Origin: Azospirillum thiophilum
GTDB taxonomy: Bacteria; Pseudomonadota; Alphaproteobacteria; Azospirillales; Azospirillaceae
Reading direction: 5' to 3'
Assembly: GCF_001305595.1 (NCBI RefSeq)
Contig: NZ_CP012401.1
Coordinates: 1,107,501-1,171,500, forward strand
Length of the DNA: 64,000 bases
Shown here: one piece after another, positions 34,446 through 43,519 of the stretch
How positions within the stretch are numbered: the first letter of the stretch is position 1
Layout of the letters: every line of letters begins with the position of its first letter
Made by a program: the position numbers and the translations under genes
Notes under the pieces: model-generated
The model's input: the letters and a program-made list of their open reading frames with translations, nothing else
What the model was told of the DNA's origin: nothing
Database searches by the model: none

Positions 34446-34522
34446 GCGCCCGTAGCTCAGCTGGATAGAGCATCAGACTACGAATCTGAGGGTCAGGAGT
34501 TCGAATCTCTTCGGGCGCGCCA
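34446..34522 (+). tRNA. tRNA-Arg (anticodon ACG), copy 1
   Basis: 77-nt cloverleaf. Acceptor stem GCGCCCG pairs with CGGGCGC, followed by discriminator G and an encoded CCA. The D arm is GCTCAGCTGGATAGAGC. The anticodon loop CTACGAA gives anticodon ACG (reads CGN arginine codons after A34 deamination). The T arm contains GTTCGAATC. It is identical to copy 2. Confidence 0.97.
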
Positions 34523-35362: not shown

Positions 35363-36211
35363 ATGGGCGGCATGGCAGGGCAGGCGTGGAGCTGGATCCA
35401 GGGCGAATGGGTGGAGGGCAACCCCCCGATCGTCGGACCGCTGTCCCACACGCTGTGGCTCTCTTCGACGGTCTTCGACGGTGCGCGCGCCTTCCAGGGT
35501 GTCGCTCCCGACCTCGATCTCCACTGCGCCCGCGCCATCCGCTCGGCCCAGGTCATGGGGCTGGAACCGATGGTGACCGCGGGTGAGATCGAGGAGCTGT
35601 GCTGGGACGGCATCCGGCGTTTCCCCAAGGAGGCGGAGCTCTACGTCCGTCCGATGTTCTACGCCGAGGACGGTTTCGTTTCGCCGGCCCCGGAGAGCAC
35701 GCGCTTTGTCCTGTCGATCTACGAGGATCCGCTGCCGAAGCCGACCGGCTTCGCCGCCTGCATCTCCACCCGCCGCCGGCCGATCCCGAGCATGGCCCCG
35801 ACCGAGGCCAAGGCCGCCTGCCTGTACCCCAATGCCGGGCTGGCGCTGGTCGAGGCGCGCAAGCGCGGCTTCCAGAACGCCATCATGCTGGACGCCATCG
35901 GGAACGTGGCGGAATTCGCGACCTCCAACATCTTCATCGCCAAAAACGGTGTGGTCCGCACGCCGGTGCCCAACGGCTGCTTCCTGAACGGCATCACCCG
36001 CCAGCGCATCATCGCCCTGCTGCGTGCTGACGGCTTCACCGTGGAGGAATGCACCCTCACCCCGCATGACGTGCTGGAGGCCGACGAGGTCTTCTCCACC
36101 GGCAACCATGCCAAATGCGTTCCGGTGACGAAGGTGGAAGACCGGAGCTTCGCCGCCGGGCCGTGTTTCGAGCGGGCGCGGGCGCTCTACTGGGAATATG
36201 CCTTCCGCTGA
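35363..36211 (+). CDS. branched-chain amino acid aminotransferase (class IV)
   Basis: PLP-dependent fold-type IV aminotransferase of 282 residues, probably acting on Leu, Ile and Val with 2-oxoglutarate. The PLP lysine is K150 in APTEAKAAC. NVAEFATSNIFI and PNGCFLNGITRQRII are the conserved cofactor-binding motifs. The length is slightly short for IlvE (about 300), and a D-amino-acid or aminodeoxychorismate-type specificity cannot be excluded. The start ATG at 35363 follows AGGGAAGGACGCAATC. Confidence 0.85.
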   Translation: MGGMAGQAWSWIQGEWVEGNPPIVGPLSHTLWLSSTVFDGARAFQGVAPDLDLHCARAIRSAQVMGLEPMVTAGEIEELCWDGIRRFPKEAELYVRPMFYAEDGFVSPAPESTRFVLSIYEDPLPKPTGFAACISTRRRPIPSMAPTEAKAACLYPNAGLALVEARKRGFQNAIMLDAIGNVAEFATSNIFIAKNGVVRTPVPNGCFLNGITRQRIIALLRADGFTVEECTLTPHDVLEADEVFSTGNHAKCVPVTKVEDRSFAAGPCFERARALYWEYAFR

Positions 36212-36492
36212 TCGCGGAGCGCGACCGCCGCCCGGCGGTGATGGGCCAGCGTGGCGGCCAGCCGGGCCAGCCACGCGTCGGCCCGCGCGGTTGCGGCGCT
36301 TTGCGTCCGGCGTCGGCCCGCGACCGCGAGGCGTGCCTCGGCCGCCAGCGACTCATGCAGATGGAGGGCGGCAGCGCGGCGCAGGGCGTTGGCGCGGGTT
36401 TCTCCGCCGAGGAGGACCACCCGCAGGTCGCTCTGCGGCGGTCGGCCGTCATGGGTACGGAGCAGGGCGTCGAGGCGGGAGGCGCGGTCCAT
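36187..36492 (-). CDS. possible small basic protein
   Basis: 101-residue frame, arginine- and alanine-rich and helical in appearance, opening MDRASRLDALLRTHDGRPP. Its end overlaps the aminotransferase gene by 25 bp. No clear ribosome site precedes the ATG and no family is recognised. It may be real, but high-GC DNA also makes frames like this by chance. Confidence 0.35.
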   Translation of the reverse strand: MDRASRLDALLRTHDGRPPQSDLRVVLLGGETRANALRRAAALHLHESLAAEARLAVAGRRRTQSAATARADAWLARLAATLAHHRRAAVALRDQRKAYSQ

Positions 36493-36631
36493 GGAGTGGA
36501 CGATAGCGCTTGCCGGATCTGGCTGTAAAGGCTAATTTTCCTAGGATAGGTGGCCGCGGGAAAAGGTATTTCCCCCCCAGGATACCATCTTGCAAAAGAC
36601 TGGGAGAGGGGCGGCCGGACCGTGGTCTGCC

Positions 36632-37264
36632 TTACTGGCTGGCCCAGATGATCCTTGCCATCCAGGCGACGTCCGACAGCGGGATGCTGCGGTCGGGATG
36701 GGCGTGGTTGATCGACAGCAGTTCGATCTTCGTCGCGGTTTCGCGGATCAACTGCTTGGCCATCACCTCGCCGCCCCTGGTGCGGACGACGACGCGGTCG
36801 TTGCGGCGGATTTGTGCGGCAGGGGAGACGATGATGGTGTCGCCGTCGCGGTAGACCGGTTCCATGCTGTCGCCGGAAATCTCAAGCGCATAAGCATGGG
36901 GGTCGCCCAGGCTGGGGAAAAGCAGCTCGTCCCAGCCGCTGCCGGCGGGGAAACCGGCATCGTCGAAATAGCCGGCGGACCCGGCCTGTGCGTAGCCGAT
37001 CACCGGAACCCGCTGCAGCGGATTGGTGCCGGTGCCGTCGCCGACCAGAGTGACGAATTCCGACAGCGAAGCGCCGGTGGCGTCCAGCACCTTGGAGATG
37101 CTTTCAGTCGACGGCCAGCGCAGCTTGCCGTCGCTGGTCGTGCGCTTGCTCTTGTTGAAGGTCGTCGGATCCAGTCCGGCGCGCCGCGCCAGTCCGGAAG
37201 CGGAAAACCCGTGCTGCGCCGCGAGGCGGTCGATGGCCCGCCAGATATCCGTGTGTTTCAGCAT
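36632..37264 (-). CDS. LexA/CI-like S24 family transcriptional regulator
   Basis: Phage-repressor-type protein of 210 residues. An N-terminal helix-turn-helix (about 10-45: GFSASGLARRAGLDPTTFNKSK) is joined to a C-terminal S24 peptidase domain. The catalytic pair is present: S133 in ISGDSMEP and K170 in GGEVMAK. A possible self-cleavage site, Ala94-Gly95, lies in VPVIGYAQAGSAG. Together these suggest a repressor cleaved during RecA activation, but many relatives are stable. It is divergent from the phage-like genes at 37435 onward, with 170 bp between, so it probably controls them. The frame is full length. Confidence 0.88.
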   Translation of the reverse strand: MLKHTDIWRAIDRLAAQHGFSASGLARRAGLDPTTFNKSKRTTSDGKLRWPSTESISKVLDATGASLSEFVTLVGDGTGTNPLQRVPVIGYAQAGSAGYFDDAGFPAGSGWDELLFPSLGDPHAYALEISGDSMEPVYRDGDTIIVSPAAQIRRNDRVVVRTRGGEVMAKQLIRETATKIELLSINHAHPDRSIPLSDVAWMARIIWASQ

Positions 37265-37321
37265 GGGACGATAGTCTCATAGATATGCGATCCGGTCCCT
37301 AGGAACTTTTTCATAAAACCA

Positions 37322-37350
37322 TTGACCGGGCGTGGCAGCCGGAACATAAC
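37322..37350 (+). promoter_or_regulatory. predicted promoter of the phage-like operon
   Basis: -35-like TTGACC (37322-37327) and -10-like CATAAC (37345-37350) with a 17-bp spacer, about 85 bp before the first phage-like gene and close to the divergent S24 regulator. Confidence 0.45.
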
Positions 37351-37434
37351 GCAAACATAAGGCGCCACCGCCGGCCGGTTCCAGCGGTTCCCGCACTTCC
37401 CCCGTTCAAATTCCGAAGCCGCAAGGAGACCAGC

Positions 37435-37851
37435 ATGCTGAGTCCGGCCGCCACCCCTTTGTCTGCCTCTCCGCCTGTCCGGCAGCCGACCCGAGCCGTT
37501 CCGCTCCGGGCCGAGCCCTTCATGGCCGAGGGCCAGCCCTTCGCCGGGGCGGAGGAGGCGTGGTTCTGGGCGGTGCAGGCGCAGGACGCCAAGGCGGCTG
37601 GTGCACGGGTCGCCGCCGGACGGGGGCTGATCGAGCGGCCCTGCGAACCTCAGGACGTGCTGCGGGTGGTCGACCGGTTGTACCGGACGCGAAAGCTGCT
37701 GCGCGACCACTTGCATGTCCTGGTCCATTACGGTCGCCGCCAGGGCGCGCCGGAACCGGATCGCTTCCGTGAACAACGCGCCCACGCCCTGTGGTCCGAG
37801 GCCTTCGATCTCATCGGTCCCGCCCTGCGCGAGAAGGGCATCGCACGATGA
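37435..37851 (+). CDS. unknown protein at the head of the phage-like operon
   Basis: 138 residues, soluble, no family recognised. The N-terminal 30 residues are Pro/Ala-rich. The core EEAWFWAVQAQDAKAAGARV...CEPQDVLRVVDRLYR...LLRDHLHVLVHYGRR looks like a compact helical domain rich in Trp, His and Tyr, similar in style to DNA- or protein-binding phage accessory proteins. AAGGAG precedes the ATG. The stop overlaps the next start by 4 bp (ATGA), so it is translationally coupled to the other phage-like genes. Confidence 0.8.
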   Translation: MLSPAATPLSASPPVRQPTRAVPLRAEPFMAEGQPFAGAEEAWFWAVQAQDAKAAGARVAAGRGLIERPCEPQDVLRVVDRLYRTRKLLRDHLHVLVHYGRRQGAPEPDRFREQRAHALWSEAFDLIGPALREKGIAR

Positions 37852-38255
37852 GCACACCCAATGCAGGCGCGCCGGCGACCGCCTGGGTGGTCTACCGGGG
37901 GGAGGCGCCGCTGTGGTGGCTGCGCGTGTTGAAGCCGGGGTTCCGCCACTGCCTGGCCCTGCTGAACGATGGGCGGCGCTGGGTGGCGGTCGATCCGCTG
38001 GCTGGCTTCACCGACGTGGCGGTGCTCGACCTGCCCGCCGATTTCGACCTGCCGGGCTGGTATCGCGCGCAGGGGCTGACGGTCGATGCCGCTGCGCTGC
38101 GCCGCCCATCGGGTGCCGCCCCCTGGGGGCCCTTCACCTGCGTCGAGGCGGTCAAGCGCCTGATCGGCCTGCGTGCCCGCCGGGTGCTGACCCCCTGGCA
38201 GCTGCATCGCCACCTGAACCGCTCCTCCCCGCGGCATGCCACCGTTCGACCCTGA
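37848..38255 (+). CDS. unknown protein in the phage-like operon
   Basis: 135 residues, beginning MSTPNAGAPATAWVVYRGEAPLWWLRVLKPGFRHCL. The N-terminal half is beta-rich and aromatic (RWVAVDPLAGFTDVAVLDL). C45 in FRHCLALL and the PFTCVEAVKRLIGL segment stand out as a Cys/His-containing fold. This shape recalls small phage proteins near portal genes, but no family is named. It overlaps the previous gene by 4 bp and ends 14 bp before the portal gene. Confidence 0.78.
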   Translation: MSTPNAGAPATAWVVYRGEAPLWWLRVLKPGFRHCLALLNDGRRWVAVDPLAGFTDVAVLDLPADFDLPGWYRAQGLTVDAAALRRPSGAAPWGPFTCVEAVKRLIGLRARRVLTPWQLHRHLNRSSPRHATVRP

Positions 38256-38269
38256 TCCGGAGACCGCCG

Positions 38270-39838
38270 ATGACCCAATCCCCAGCCATCAAAACGGCGT
38301 CCCGGAAGGCGAAGGAGCTGTCGGAGCCCGAAGCCTTGCTGGAGCGCTACCGGGCCGCGCGCGAACGCCGCGCCGTGTGGGAGCGCCACTGGCAGGAGTG
38401 CTACGATCATGCGCTGCCCAATGGCCGGCCCTTCCGCGGCGACGGCACCCCCGGCGAGCGCCGCGTCGACCGGCTGTTCGACGGCACCGCCCCCGACGCG
38501 GTGGAACAGCTCGCCGCCAGCCTGCTGTCGGAACTGACGCCCCCCTGGTCGCGCTGGTTCGGCTTCCAGCCCGGGCCGGCGCTGACCGGGGCGGAGCGCG
38601 ACCGCGTCGCTCCGCTGCTCGACCGCACGGCCGGCATCGTCCAGGCCCATTTCGACCGCTCCAACTTCGCGGTGGAGATCCACCAGGCCTTCCTCGACCT
38701 CGTCACCGTCGGCACCGCCAGCCTGCTGATGGAGGAAGCTGCCCCCGGTGCCCCGTCCAGCCTGCGCTTCACCGCCGTACCGCTGGCCGAAGCGGTGCTG
38801 GAGGAGGGGCCGGACGGCCGGCTCGACGCCACCTTCCGCCGCAGCGAGGCGACGATTGCCCAGATCCTCCAGCGCTTTCCCGGTGCCGACCTGCCCGATG
38901 AGCTGCGCAAGCGGGCCGCCGACGAGCCCGACACCCGCTTTGCCCTGGTCGAGGCGGTGCTGCCCGACGGCACCGCCTATCGCTGGGCCGTGGTTCTGGA
39001 CAGCGGGCTGGCCGAGCCGTCCTGGCTGGCCCAGGGGCGCTTCGCCCAGTCGCCTTTCCTCAATTTCCGCTGGCTGAAGGCGCCGGGCGAGACCTACGGC
39101 CGCTCCCCGGTGATGAAGACGCTGCCCGACATCAAGACCGCCAACAAGGTGGTGGAACTGGTGTTGAAGAACGCCTCCATCGCCGTCACCGGCATCTGGC
39201 AGGCGGAGGATGACGGGGTGCTGAACCCGGCGACCATCCGGCTGGTGCCGGGCACCATCATTCCAAAGGCGATGGGATCGGCCGGGCTGACGCCGCTGGC
39301 CAATCCCGGCCGTTTCGATGTGTCGCAGCTGGTGCTGGACGATCTGCGTGGGCGCATCCGCCATGCGCTGCTGATCGACCGGCTGGGGCCGGTGGAGTCG
39401 GCGCGCATGACCGCGACCGAGGTGCTGGAACGGTCCGTCGAAATGGCGCGGCTGCTGGGCGCCACCTATGGCCGCCTGCAGGCGGAACTGATGACCCCGC
39501 TGCTGCTGCGCGCGGTGTCCATCCTGCGCCGCCGCGGCGAGATCCCGGACATCACCGTCGATGGCCGGCTGGTCGAGTTGCAGCACCGTTCGCCGCTGGC
39601 CCAGGCCCAGGCGCAGCGCGACGTGCAGGCGACCCTGCGCTGGCTCGACAGCGTCAAGGCGCTGGGGCCGCAGGCGGAGGCCGCGATGGACGCCGCCGCG
39701 ACCGCCCGTTGGCTGGGCGAGGCCTTCGGCGTTCCCGCCAAGCTGATGCGGGCGGAGGCCGCCGCACCCGCACCCGTTTCCGCACCGGCTCCTGCGGCAT
39801 CGCCCGTGGAGTTGCCCGTGGAGGTACCCAATGGCTGA
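38270..39838 (+). CDS. phage head-tail connector/portal protein (T7 gp8-like)
   Basis: 522-residue protein of the podophage head-to-tail connecting family, which forms the dodecameric portal for DNA entry and exit. Diagnostic stretches are LLERYRAARERRAVWERHWQECYDHALP near the start, LFDGTAPDAVEQLAASLLSELTPPWSRWF, YGRSPVMKTLPDIKTANKVVELVLKNASIA, and RMTATEVLERSVEMARLLGATYGRLQ. The C-terminal Pro/Ala tail is variable. GGAGA precedes the ATG at 38270. The 3' end overlaps the next frame by 8 bp. The frame is intact and full length. Confidence 0.88.
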   Translation: MTQSPAIKTASRKAKELSEPEALLERYRAARERRAVWERHWQECYDHALPNGRPFRGDGTPGERRVDRLFDGTAPDAVEQLAASLLSELTPPWSRWFGFQPGPALTGAERDRVAPLLDRTAGIVQAHFDRSNFAVEIHQAFLDLVTVGTASLLMEEAAPGAPSSLRFTAVPLAEAVLEEGPDGRLDATFRRSEATIAQILQRFPGADLPDELRKRAADEPDTRFALVEAVLPDGTAYRWAVVLDSGLAEPSWLAQGRFAQSPFLNFRWLKAPGETYGRSPVMKTLPDIKTANKVVELVLKNASIAVTGIWQAEDDGVLNPATIRLVPGTIIPKAMGSAGLTPLANPGRFDVSQLVLDDLRGRIRHALLIDRLGPVESARMTATEVLERSVEMARLLGATYGRLQAELMTPLLLRAVSILRRRGEIPDITVDGRLVELQHRSPLAQAQAQRDVQATLRWLDSVKALGPQAEAAMDAAATARWLGEAFGVPAKLMRAEAAAPAPVSAPAPAASPVELPVEVPNG

Positions 39839-40109
39839 GCGCGCCGGCTGGGACTGGCTGGAGGCGCTGCCCTCCGACGGTCCGGATATAGCCGAGGTTC
39901 CCGCCGAGGTTCCCACCGATCCGGCCCCCAGCTTCGCCCGCTGCTTCGCCGGGGCCGACGGGTTGCGGGTGTTGACGGTGCTGCGGGCGATGACGCTCGA
40001 CCGCGCGCTCGGTCCCGATGCGCCGGAGGCGGCGCTGCGTCACCTCGAAGGCCAACGCCAGCTGGTGGCCGCCATCCTCGCCCTGGTCGCGCGGGGACGG
40101 TCGGGCTGA
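39831..40109 (+). CDS. Bbp19-like phage protein
   Basis: 92-residue protein. The C-terminal half (SFARCFAGADGLRVLTVLRAMTLDRALGPDAPEAALRHLEGQRQLVAAILALVARG) is the small Bbp19-type domain found beside portal genes in podophages. The function is not established. The ATG overlaps the portal stop by 8 bp. The N-terminal ~35 residues are acidic and proline-rich. Confidence 0.78.
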   Translation: MAERAGWDWLEALPSDGPDIAEVPAEVPTDPAPSFARCFAGADGLRVLTVLRAMTLDRALGPDAPEAALRHLEGQRQLVAAILALVARGRSG

Positions 40110-40153
40110 CCGACGATGTCCTTTTCCTTTTTCCTTCTCTGCTGGAGTCGATC

Positions 40154-40948
40154 ATGGCCGACAATCTGCTGACCGCACCTGTCACCCCCGCCGCCGTGCC
40201 GCCCGTGTCCGATCCGGCCCAGCCGCCGGCGATCCCGGAGAAGTTCCGCGATCCCAAGACCGGCGCGCTGCGTGTCGAGGCGTTGCTGAAATCCTATCTG
40301 GAACTGGAACGCCGCCTGTCGACGCAGGCGCCGCCGGCCCCCCAGCCGGTTTCCGACCTCGCCTCCTCCGAACCGCCGCCTTTCGATCCGGCCGCGCTCG
40401 ATCCGGCGCAGCTTCGCCGGCTGCTGGGAGCGCCGGACTCGGCGGACGGCTACCGGATCGCCTGCGACCACGGCATGTTCCAGCCCGACCCGGAAATCAA
40501 CGGCCGCCTGTTCGACGCCGGCTATACCCCGGACCAGGCCCAGCTTCTCTACGACCTCGCCGCCGAGCGGATGGTGCCGCTGATCCAGCATCTCGCCGCC
40601 GAGTTCCAGGCGGAGCGCGAGGTCGAGCGGCTGGTCGCCCGCTTCGGCGGCGAGGAGCGCTGGCGCGAGGTGTCGCGTCAACTCCTGGCCTGGGCCGGAA
40701 AGACCCTGCCCGCGGCGGCGGTGGAGGGGCTGTCGACCACCTTCGAGGGAGTCATGGCGCTCTATTCGATGATGACCGGCAGCGAACCGTCGGCCCTGGC
40801 GATGGCGGGAACCCGCTCCGGGGGCGGCGATGGCGAGACCGAGCTGCGCACCCTGATGCGCGACCCGCGCTATTGGCGGGAGCGCGACCCGACGGTGATC
40901 GCCCGCGTCACCGAAGGCTTCCAGCGGCTCTATCCCGGTCAGGGCTGA
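40154..40948 (+). CDS. phage capsid-assembly/scaffold-like protein
   Basis: 264 residues. A Pro/Ala-rich, probably disordered N-terminus is followed by IPEKFRDPKTGALRVEALLKSYLELERRLS, the opening motif of podophage scaffold proteins, and a helical C-terminal part (GYTPDQAQLLYDLAAERMVPLIQHLAAEFQAERE; EGFQRLYPGQG). Scaffolds shape the procapsid and are removed on packaging. No major capsid gene follows; the next gene is a c-di-GMP enzyme 240 bp away. Confidence 0.75.
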   Translation: MADNLLTAPVTPAAVPPVSDPAQPPAIPEKFRDPKTGALRVEALLKSYLELERRLSTQAPPAPQPVSDLASSEPPPFDPAALDPAQLRRLLGAPDSADGYRIACDHGMFQPDPEINGRLFDAGYTPDQAQLLYDLAAERMVPLIQHLAAEFQAEREVERLVARFGGEERWREVSRQLLAWAGKTLPAAAVEGLSTTFEGVMALYSMMTGSEPSALAMAGTRSGGGDGETELRTLMRDPRYWRERDPTVIARVTEGFQRLYPGQG

Positions 40949-41188: not shown

Positions 41189-43519
41189 ATGACGCTGCGC
41201 CGCAAGATACGCTGGCTGACCTGGATCGGCCTGATCGGCTGCCTGATGGCGGCGATCCCCGCGCTCTTCCTGCTTCGCCAGGGCATGATCGCCGAACGGG
41301 GACAGGTGGCGGCCGCCCTGGTCTCGTCTGCCGAGGGGCTGCTCGGCGATCTGGACCGGTCGGCGGCATCCGGGGCGATCTCCGCCGACGAGGCGCGCGA
41401 GCGGGCGCGGCAGGCGCTTCGGGCGCTGTCGGCCAAGCCCTTCCATGTCACGATCTTCACGGACGGCGTCCTCCCTCCGGGCTGGCCGGCCCTCGATCGC
41501 GCCGTGACGGCGAACGGCCGGTTCGAGCCCTGGGGCTGGGCGATCGGCGCCGCTGGCGACATCGGCGACCTCGACCGCGATTTCCTGGTGGAGGCATCCG
41601 GCTTCCTGTTGTTCCTGGGCGCCCTTCTGGTGCTGAGCTGGCCGGGATCGCTGTTCCTGTCCCAGCATGTGGTCGGTCCGCTGGAAGCCCTGTCGGTCCG
41701 CATGCATCTCCTGACCCAGGGCCGAACCGACATCGACATCCCCGGTTGCGACCGCCGCGACGAGTTCGGCGCGATGGCCCGCGCCATGGAGTTCTTCCGC
41801 CGGGCCGCCATCGCCCTGATCGAGCGGGACGAGCGACTGGCCGGCATCATGAACAATGTCAGCGAGGCGATTCTCCTGGTCGATTCCAGCGGCCGGATCG
41901 AGGAGCACAACCCCGCCGCCGTCGCGCTGTTCGGCGTTCCCGCCGCCGCCCTGCGCGGGCGTACGCTGTCGAGCCTGTTCGCCGCTCCAGACTGCGGGCG
42001 GGTGGACGAACTGCTGGCCGATATGGACCTGCGGGAGGATATGGCGGCGCCGGTGCGTGCCGAGGCCCTGGGGATCGAGCGTCGGGATGGCGGCGAGCGC
42101 ATCGACGCCTCGCTCAGCGTGTCGCCGCTGGTGGTGCAGGGGCGGCGCGGCTTCGTCTGCGCGCTGGCCGACGTGACCGACCGGCTGCGGCACGAGCGCG
42201 AGCTGATGCGACTGGCGACCCGCGACCGGCTGACCGGGCTGCCCAACCGGGCGATGATCGAATCGGTGCTGGAGCGGGCGGTGGAGCGCAGCCGCCGCCA
42301 TGACCGCAATTTCGCCGTGCTGTGCCTGGACCTGTCGCGCTTCAAGCTGATCACCGACACGCTGGGCCATCAGGCCGGCGATGCGCTGCTGCAGGAGGTG
42401 GCGCGGCGGGTGGTCGCCAGCGTTCGCGCCGCCGATCTGGTCGGCCGCATAGGCAGCGACGACTTCGCCGTCATCCTGGAGGAGATCCGCGACGCCGACG
42501 AGGCGGCGGCCATCGCCGGCCGTATCCTTGACTCCTTTGACGCGCCGGTCACGCTGCCCGGCTGCGAGCATTACGTCCGCCCGGCGGTCGGCATCGCCGT
42601 CTATCCGGACGACGTGGCGGGCGAGGCGGAGGATCCGCAGGCGTTGCTGCGCGCCGCCGAGACCGCGCTCTATGCCGCCAAGCGGATGGGCGGGCGCCGC
42701 CATGCCTTCTTCCGCCCCGAACTGGCCGAGCAGGCCCGGCGCCAGCTGGCGCTGGACGGCGACCTGCGTGCGGCGCTGGCATTGAAGCAGTTCCGCCTGC
42801 ATTACCAGCCCAAGGTGTCGCTGATCGATTTCTCGCTGGAGGGGTTCGAGGCGCTGCTGCGCTGGGAAAAGCCGGGGCATGGCATGATCCCGCCCGGTGA
42901 GTTCATCCCGGTGGCGGAGGAGACTGGCTTCATCGTGCCGCTCGGCGACTGGGTGCTGGACGAGGCCTGCCGGCAGATGCGCGAATGGCTGGATGCCGGG
43001 ATGGAACCGGTTCCGGTCGCGGTCAACATCTCGCCGAAGCATCTTCGCAACCGCAGCGCCGAGGATTTCCGCCGGATCATCGACCGCCACGGCCTGCCCC
43101 CCGACCTCGTCGAGCTGGAGATCACCGAAGGCGCCGTGATGCAGGATCTCGACCATGCGCTTGCCGTGCTGGCAGCGTTGAAGGCGATGGGCATCCGGGT
43201 GGCGGTGGACGATTTCGGCACCGGCCATTCCTCCCTGAGCTATCTGAAGCGGTTGCCGATCACCACGCTGAAGATAGACCGCTCCTTCATCAGCGGCGTC
43301 CCGCAGGAGCGGGAGGATGCCGGCATCGTTTCCACCATCATCGCGATGGCCGACATGCTGGGCCTGCATGTGGTGGCCGAAGGGGTGGAGAAGACCGAGC
43401 AGGCCAATTTCCTGCGCCATCACAATTGCACCCAGGTCCAGGGCTGGCTGACCGGCCGCCCGGTGCCGGCGGACGCCGCCTGCAGCCTGTTGATGGAGCG
43501 GTTGCGGGAGATCGCGTGA
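41189..43519 (+). CDS. membrane EAL-domain c-di-GMP phosphodiesterase with degenerate GGDEF domain
   Basis: 776-residue protein. A transmembrane helix at about 10-30 and a second at about 125-155 flank a short periplasmic domain, followed by HAMP, a PAS domain (ILLVDSSGRIEEHNPAAVALFG), GGDEF and EAL domains. The GGDEF site is G422-S-D-D-F rather than GG(D/E)EF, so cyclase activity is probably lost; such domains often bind GTP to activate the EAL part. The EAL site is intact: E554-A-L, NISPKHL, LEITEGAVM, DDFGTGHSSLSYLKRLP and AEGVEK. The protein therefore most likely lowers c-di-GMP in response to a periplasmic or PAS-sensed signal, affecting motility or biofilm. The ATG at 41189 is used. Confidence 0.93.
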   Translation: MTLRRKIRWLTWIGLIGCLMAAIPALFLLRQGMIAERGQVAAALVSSAEGLLGDLDRSAASGAISADEARERARQALRALSAKPFHVTIFTDGVLPPGWPALDRAVTANGRFEPWGWAIGAAGDIGDLDRDFLVEASGFLLFLGALLVLSWPGSLFLSQHVVGPLEALSVRMHLLTQGRTDIDIPGCDRRDEFGAMARAMEFFRRAAIALIERDERLAGIMNNVSEAILLVDSSGRIEEHNPAAVALFGVPAAALRGRTLSSLFAAPDCGRVDELLADMDLREDMAAPVRAEALGIERRDGGERIDASLSVSPLVVQGRRGFVCALADVTDRLRHERELMRLATRDRLTGLPNRAMIESVLERAVERSRRHDRNFAVLCLDLSRFKLITDTLGHQAGDALLQEVARRVVASVRAADLVGRIGSDDFAVILEEIRDADEAAAIAGRILDSFDAPVTLPGCEHYVRPAVGIAVYPDDVAGEAEDPQALLRAAETALYAAKRMGGRRHAFFRPELAEQARRQLALDGDLRAALALKQFRLHYQPKVSLIDFSLEGFEALLRWEKPGHGMIPPGEFIPVAEETGFIVPLGDWVLDEACRQMREWLDAGMEPVPVAVNISPKHLRNRSAEDFRRIIDRHGLPPDLVELEITEGAVMQDLDHALAVLAALKAMGIRVAVDDFGTGHSSLSYLKRLPITTLKIDRSFISGVPQEREDAGIVSTIIAMADMLGLHVVAEGVEKTEQANFLRHHNCTQVQGWLTGRPVPADAACSLLMERLREIA

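Follow-up and report, generated by a model that had tools for sequence, protein, structure and literature searches.

The stretch analyzed here is a window of 64,000 nucleotides from Azospirillum thiophilum (NCBI RefSeq assembly GCF_001305595.1, contig NZ_CP012401.1, positions 1,107,501 to 1,171,500 of the forward strand), in which a small phage-like island occupies positions 36,632 through 40,948. An S24-type (LexA/CI-like) regulator faces five genes on the opposite strand, namely orf1, orf2, a T7-type portal, a Bbp19-like protein and a scaffold-like protein (Table 1). An earlier note on this DNA had described the same arrangement, with the first two genes as unknowns; its coordinates, frames and regulator residues proved correct, Pfam and PHROG matches agree with its gene identities, and all frames are intact. 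Its description of tight packing with overlaps holds for orf1/orf2 (4-nt overlap) and portal/Bbp19 (8 nt), and not for the orf2-portal and Bbp19-scaffold junctions, which are gaps of 14 and 44 nt. Its suggestion of a reduced or defective island has to be abandoned: 257 kb away, the remaining genes for head, tail and packaging are intact, and they have a promoter element in common with the island. Together, the two loci form an intact, conserved, domesticated podovirus-derived particle system of Azospirillum, which we call the module.

The second half was found using the capsid of a relative as query. Capsid, tail and terminase genes had been recorded as missing from both flanks; this stands for the genes on either side of the island (the whole 64-kb window was not scanned for phage families) and fails for the genome. 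An intact capsid gene, which the earlier note had proposed looking for elsewhere, lies on the same chromosome 257 kb from the portal, and its product is 90% identical to the capsid of a relative with a contiguous module. It is the first of eight genes (locus 2; Table 1), some kilobases downstream of ATP synthase genes read by eye. In two IMG/VR contigs from close relatives (L031 and L032), the capsid is the next phage gene past the scaffold, with a GGDEF-EAL gene between them. The portal (PF12236), scaffold (PF05396) and tail tubes (phrog_394 and phrog_376), together with a weaker tubular match (phrog_9239), are of the T7-type structural lineage. The early half spans 3.5 kb and the late half 8.5 kb, ~12 kb in total. 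No integrase or replication family was found among the 14 module genes scanned with Pfam and PHROGs or among neighbors read by eye; no genome-wide search aimed at phage replication genes was made.

Relatives show how the halves belong together. The comparison comprised 29 Azospirillum genomes with portal and capsid intact enough on one contig; split portals, portals and capsids on different contigs, G003 and G007 were left out. The portal-capsid gap is 3.9 to 6.9 kb in 16 of these genomes and 17 kb to 2.6 Mb in the other 13. In G006, a 14.4-kb stretch holds portal, capsid and terminase on a single strand and is followed by thrS. In 38 of 45 genus genomes, 3.6 to 4.9 kb separate the large terminase gene (TerL) from thrS, which argues that the early half is the part that moved; in the remaining seven, TerL and thrS are further apart (by up to 13 kb in three, 285 kb in one) or on different contigs (three). 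In A. brasilense BR 11026 the early half is present (L126), and G001, taken as the same strain, has the whole block. Outside the genus, the S24 gene through terminase form one block in Pseudoroseomonas oryzae (L175), with other genes upstream (by eye), while in Hyphomicrobiales UR115 (L133) the scaffold is followed by other genes; provided that contig C1 is the named chromosome, a capsid match lies ~11 kb past the portal. A complete prophage with the island as its edge, the finding that the earlier note had held would overturn its proposal, was not encountered in the loci read.

The two halves are also joined by a shared element. The region between repressor and orf1 contains a CCTAGG box and a promoter-like TTGAC, both conserved across the Azospirillum loci read; the CCTAGG core recurs in several Acetobacteraceae loci. 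TATGAAAAAGTTCCTAG lies within this site on the opposite strand. The corresponding sequence upstream of the distant capsid is TGTGAAAATAGTCCTTC in A. thiophilum, and relatives have TATGAAAATAGTCCTTG or a version close to it. With at most one mismatch, the 17-base pattern TRTGAAAANNNTCCTWG has exactly two matches in the 7.6-Mb genome, one before each half; G018 and G034 likewise have just two, one per half. Both half-sites are accompanied by one other match in A. lipoferum Sp59b (G020) and by two others in G021, which we take to be strain B510, and G006 has the locus-1 site and one match elsewhere. The reversed pattern, used as a control, gave zero to two matches per genome. The element is present in 15/15 locus-1 and 17/17 locus-2 regions examined, which is a measure of conservation, as the element was derived from some of those regions; the genome-wide count is the test. 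Either the S24 repressor or orf1 is a candidate for the protein that would bind it. A third, identical near-match, TATGAAAATTATCCTAC, occurs away from both loci at G020:C23:41250 (L251) and G021:C2:1083764 (L252); it has no clear gene behind it and was set aside as a third regulated locus.

The regulator has all the residues expected of a self-cleaving S24 protein (Ala94-Gly95, Ser133 and Lys170), and its helix-turn-helix (HTH) match (HTH_26, E = 2.7e-4) falls just under the Pfam cut-off. Alignment of the window protein with 35 of 54 deduplicated relatives shows the cleavage site and Ser-Lys pair kept in 29 of 36 sequences. The serine, the cleavage site or both are altered in the other seven, which are mostly distant (L064, L139, L141, L147, L187, L045 and L149) and in which control of the module may differ. 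The S24 gene stands divergently beside the module in 72 of 80 named relatives (80 kept of 169 found); the contigs of the remaining eight stop 1.5 kb or less upstream of the portal. The idea of a domesticated module with an S24/LexA-type switch is thus sustained by its relatives.

Table 1. Features of the island and its surroundings (window coordinates) and of locus 2 (genome coordinates, G000:C1)
Feature	Position	Strand	Basis
S24-type (LexA/CI-like) repressor with HTH, predicted module switch	36632..37264	-	PF00717 E=3.5e-24; phrog_4 E=2.8e-31
Divergent regulatory region, repressor/orf1	37265..37434		conserved CCTAGG palindrome and TTGAC -35-like box
Shared element TATGAAAAAGTTCCTAG	37299..37315	-	version also upstream of distant capsid gene
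orf1, mostly helical; candidate Q-type antiterminator	37435..37851	+	predicted fold
orf2; candidate permuted NlpC/P60-like cysteine hydrolase (possible lysis/maturation enzyme)	37848..38255	+	predicted fold, invariant residues
T7-type portal (head-tail connector)	38270..39838	+	PF12236 (Head-tail_con, along length) E=3.5e-143; phrog_332 E=3.9e-99
Bbp19-like phage protein	39831..40109	+	PF25181 E=6.4e-15
Scaffold / T7-type capsid assembly protein	40154..40948	+	PF05396 E=1.3e-8; phrog_3742 E=3.1e-8
GGDEF-EAL protein, non-phage, possibly regulatory	41189..43519	+	motifs read by eye in translation
Small conserved open reading frame (ORF) downstream of repressor	36187..36492	-	CCTAGGA box before ORF at 36540; module link uncertain
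Locus 2, gene 1: capsid	G000:C1:1404336-1405151		PF19821 E=3.3e-84
Locus 2, gene 2: small phage protein			phrog_18004
Locus 2, gene 3: tail tube A			phrog_394 E=2.3e-44
Locus 2, gene 4: tail tube B			phrog_376 E=2.6e-136
Locus 2, gene 5: protein without match			
Locus 2, gene 6: tailspike, pectate-lyase-type			PF12708 E=4.4e-13
Locus 2, gene 7: large terminase (TerL)			phrog_38 E=2.6e-74
Locus 2, gene 8: small protein			phrog_29007

The portal is present in 45/45 Azospirillum genomes and in 67/82 genomes of the family; capsid and TerL are found in 68/82 and 69/82 family genomes, respectively. In a class-level search with the portal as sole query, a portal relative at E ≤ 1e-60 turned up in 66 of 385 alphaproteobacterial species; in 48 species the identity is 53% or more (two of these partial). 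Identity to A. thiophilum, the one reference genome, follows that of ThrS, with rho = 0.92 for the portal (n = 57) and 0.90 for TerL (n = 62); within the genus, the values are 0.90 and 0.88. The portal value uses 57 of 66 relatives, without the split or partial genes of G004, G011, G016, G038, G042, G050 and G073 and the poor ThrS of G074 and G079 (the partial portal of G053 was kept), and the TerL value uses 62 of 68, without G007, G044, G052, G057, G074 and G079. Judged from this correlation and from its position, the module is inherited with the host. One contig, L139, labelled as a Lactobacillaceae metagenome-assembled genome, carries this otherwise alphaproteobacterial module, and its label may be wrong.

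The module is under purifying selection. Median ratios of nonsynonymous to synonymous substitution (dN/dS, NG86, window versus relatives; 14 locus-1 and 16 locus-2 regions, and 17 for TerL, which one locus-1 region also holds) span 0.05 to 0.32 over the 14 module genes. At locus 1 they are 0.05 for the S24 gene, 0.14 for the portal, 0.25 for the scaffold and 0.29 for orf1; at locus 2, 0.16 for the capsid, 0.20 and 0.19 for the tail tubes, 0.17 for the tailspike and 0.28 for the terminase. The linked GGDEF-EAL gene has a median of 0.19. Internal stops occur in no aligned module gene; in this check, orf1 (3 of 14), orf2 (5 of 14) and the internal protein (1 of 16) had some short alignments, and 14 of 16 regions yielded the small last gene. 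Simple decay, the other outcome that would have spoken against the earlier proposal, is contradicted by the dN/dS results and by the lack of stops in aligned genes. It was not seen in the loci read either, and in 8 of the 10 genus genomes with a broken head or packaging gene the interruption is inserted DNA.

Neither orf1 nor orf2 matches a Pfam family; in PHROGs, orf1 has one chance-level match (E = 0.13) and orf2 none. The AlphaFold2 model of orf1 is helical, with a predicted local distance difference test (pLDDT) score of 84, and VIA-align places three phage-21 Q antiterminator structures at the top (Z = 7.5, 6.2 and 6.2 over 84 to 90 residues; next row Z = 2.7), within the range that the tool flags as a possible common helical arrangement. 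Foldseek returned only E = 7.8, and sequence searches gave no support for a Q identity: weak PHROG matches of unknown function (best E = 0.0016; 7/51) and one HTH match (0.035) were found among its relatives. The orf1 alignment covered the window protein and 50 of 81 relatives. We had first suspected a small terminase, which was dropped, the nearest fold being that of a Q-type antiterminator; based on the model, orf1 is a candidate antiterminator and is offered as a lead. In orf2, H34, C35 and C98 are invariant in 59 sequences (window and 58 of 116 relatives). Its model (pLDDT 88) is nearest to 6v98 (Z = 7.0) and 3kw0 (Z = 5.3), presumably members of the permuted NlpC/P60 cysteine peptidase family, in which His precedes Cys; Foldseek gave no match below 0.001. 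The predicted fold makes orf2 a candidate cysteine peptidase, again as a lead. If these leads are correct, the two assignments would fit a layout of repressor, late-gene activator and hydrolase.

In our interpretation, a T7-like podovirus most likely gave rise to a gene transfer agent (GTA) that is now in two parts, with the island as its early half and an S24/SOS-type switch in control. This interpretation is based on the intact genes of both halves, their occurrence as one block in many relatives, housekeeping-like divergence together with purifying selection, the shared element, and the failure to see any gene for integration or replication in either half. In the proposed mechanism, the S24 repressor would hold the orf1 and capsid promoters shut; on DNA damage it would cleave itself, and both promoters would open. 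Orf1, as a Q-like antiterminator, would then aid late transcription, short-tailed particles would assemble, and the terminase would fill them with host DNA. Orf2, as a cysteine peptidase-like enzyme, would help lysis or maturation, and the cell would lyse. Data stand behind the gene content, the conservation, the shared element and the catalytic residues; repression, cleavage, antitermination, packaging of host DNA and lysis are steps that we infer.

Mobile DNA has repeatedly entered the head genes. The portal is split at the same place by elements of 15 to 17 kb in four Azospirillum genomes (G011, G016, G038 and G042) and in one genome of another genus (G073). These elements (L201 through L205) are bounded by a 13- to 14-base repeat with the common core GCATCTGGCAGGC. 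According to Pfam, L201 encodes a tyrosine integrase, and L203 encodes an HK97-type portal, a protease-capsid fusion and a terminase; both also have a DUF927 protein. L202, L204 and L205 have similar gene types when read by eye, and no tail genes were obvious in the ORF lists. Capsid-forming phage-inducible chromosomal islands carry an integrase, a primase-like gene and HK97 head and terminase genes, with no tail, and from their gene content the portal elements look like capsid-forming satellites. The portal of G004 holds a 46-kb insert. The capsid is interrupted by ~39 to 43 kb of phage-like DNA in G003, G025 and G026 (L207 through L212) and by 11.4 kb in G081 (L206), the inserts sitting at about three places. 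Integrases were found in the capsid inserts of G003, G026 and G081; direct repeats flank those of G003 (19 bp) and G081 (12 bp) and were not found, using an exact 12-base seed, at the capsid inserts of G025 and G026 or the portal insert of G004. Among other broken cases, capsid and TerL are in pieces in G007 and TerL is in two frames in G044. The simplest reason for these inserts is that the genes are both conserved and dispensable; it is possible that they act as an on/off switch for gene transfer.

Several observations count against a GTA. Ten of the 45 genus genomes have a break in one or more head or packaging genes, and the system is therefore dispensable. Every module gene except S24 evolves faster than the control, a neighboring aminotransferase gene (dN/dS 0.08). 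Portal, capsid and TerL are all absent from seven of seven genomes of the sister genus g10; with identities of only 35 to 47%, 18 of the 66 class matches may represent other podovirus-type elements; the ThrS correlation rests on one reference genome and not on trees; and the capsid-side element has diverged at the contiguous locus of G006. A small terminase was not identified, nor was a certain lysis gene. The phage-type lysozyme family PF00959 matches 40/45 genus genomes, and this genus-core lysozyme was rejected as the module's lysis gene, as the copy at G000:C1:1241157 and those of seven relatives have no shared element upstream. In passages of PMC3899980, moreover, A. brasilense CBG497 showed no lysis with mitomycin C, although the module is present in A. 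brasilense BR 11026, and the authors of that paper proposed other prophage regions with an RcGTA-like gene order as the source of Azospirillum particles, the genes being guessed.

Among other explanations, we regard as unlikely a PBSX-like or killer particle, which would package DNA or harm competitors without delivering genes. It would be expected to have the same gene set and induction logic, and the pectate-lyase-type tailspike could serve target binding; a full portal-terminase-capsid packaging set under purifying selection would, however, be needless for pure killing. Copies of the module listed as viral contigs in IMG/VR, and portal relatives in phage records (up to 38.5% identical among named phages, and 56% in one faecal record without annotation), could instead point to an element that passes from strain to strain and only looks conserved, either a satellite dependent on a helper or a temperate podovirus lacking an integrase. 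We consider this quite improbable, since divergence tracks ThrS, TerL keeps its distance from thrS in 38/45 genomes, the loci read showed no integrase, and the halves are 257 kb apart in A. thiophilum. In the IMG/VR set (80 kept of 141), contigs of ~12 kb (L047 and L057 among them) correspond to this module, and its early genes recur in most of the rest of L031 through L110. There is slightly less to be said for a phage-interference device, whose induced structural proteins would poison related phages or satellites. Satellite- and phage-like elements repeatedly inactivate the portal or capsid, as if the products mattered, but conserved, losable genes are ordinary integration targets that require no conflict, and the full tail and terminase set exceeds the needs of interference. 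Least credible is an ordinary ancient prophage remnant, the persisting leftovers of an old podovirus that lost its other genes: the broken genes in 10/45 genus genomes and the module torn apart in 13/29 checkable ones would suit it, but the selection result (low dN/dS) contradicts it, as do the module's presence in every genus genome, the lack of stops in aligned genes and the element at both torn halves.

Two neighbors may belong to the putative GTA. In the Azospirillum loci read, the gene after the scaffold is the GGDEF-EAL gene, and L190 (labelled Magnetospirillum, portal 85% identical) has the same order. The gene is not at this place in the other genera listed, and it has relocated together with the early half. 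Cyclic di-GMP affects RcGTA output, and by analogy a regulatory role for this gene in the module is possible. The small ORF downstream of the repressor is matched in 26 loci, with a CCTAGGA box between repressor and ORF in at least 23, and may be part of the module regulon. Upstream of the island, at window positions 34446 through 34522 and 34726 through 34802, are two tRNA-Arg(ACG) genes that score equally in Rfam, their starts 280 bases apart.

Particles have been described from this genus. Passages of PMC3899980, citing Boyer 2008, report that several Azospirillum strains gave off particles on mitomycin C treatment; those from A. lipoferum strains and B510 held ~10 kb of DNA and were called rather GTAs, and 4B particles contained random host fragments. 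A. lipoferum Sp59b (G020; early half L129, late half L223) and G021 have both halves of the module, without stops and with the element at both, and the module is possibly the source of the ~10-kb A. lipoferum/B510 particles. At ~12 kb (3.5 and 8.5 kb), the module exceeds the ~10 kb of DNA reported for those particles and therefore could hardly move itself in one of them. The regions B510PP01 and AZOLI_1757-1794, like the module, have been put forward as the source of these particles, but they are described as strain-specific prophage with a terminase-portal-protease-capsid order (passages of PMC3899980), whereas the module is in every genus genome searched. The RcGTA marker GTA_TIM (PF13547) was found in none of 45 Azospirillum genomes, with Caulobacter positive among 14 control genomes; RcGTA was discarded as the particle producer on the absence of this marker from 45/45 genomes.

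The module can be set beside known systems. VSH-1 of Brachyspira is a GTA with a divided genome, like the module halves, in an unrelated host. T7-like and Pelagibacter podoviruses have the same scaffold and tail-tube gene types, and the portal is 30 to 38.5% identical to Pelagibacter phage proteins; their records are phages of 34 to 39 kb, whereas the module comprises structure, packaging and regulation genes only. The RcGTA type is also alphaproteobacterial, built of domesticated phage structural and packaging genes, conserved and not self-propagating (in part from passages of PMC7947584), but Azospirillum is without GTA_TIM, the portal, scaffold and tail tube of the module are T7-like, and the S24 repressor is inside the module. 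The Bartonella GTA shares the class, the terminase-portal-capsid-tail organization and conservation in its genus; the passages of PMC2697382 describe packaging of host DNA in 14-kb pieces and lambda-like portal and terminase genes, by which it is set apart from the module on description rather than sequence. FpGTA of Faecalibacterium, compared by description only, is podovirus-like and has two operons ~125 kb apart in one strain; its first operon is in all twelve strains examined, it carries short host DNA of 8.4 to 8.9 kb, and it is described as the first podovirus-like GTA (passages of PMC12946183). It differs in its gram-positive host, and the same passages name no S24 repressor.

Considerably more tentative than the assignment of the island to a GTA is a broader proposal, possible though doubtful: that the module is an ancient S24-switched podovirus GTA spread across many families of Alphaproteobacteria and the true source of the ~10-kb particles, with satellites and prophages docking in portal and capsid so that integration would turn it off and excision on.

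Few GTAs are known, and the RcGTA and Bartonella types derive from other kinds of phage; no paper naming this module as a GTA was found in the open-licence PubMed Central literature. Virus catalogues may hold GTA blocks as viruses, and listed viral contigs may be host-owned. The repeated insertion into portal and capsid suggests that GTAs and mobile elements interact. If the GTA interpretation is true, it would provide a gene set to test for the A. lipoferum particles and would represent another independent domestication in the class, with a portal at ≥53% identity in about one in eight of the alphaproteobacterial species sampled.

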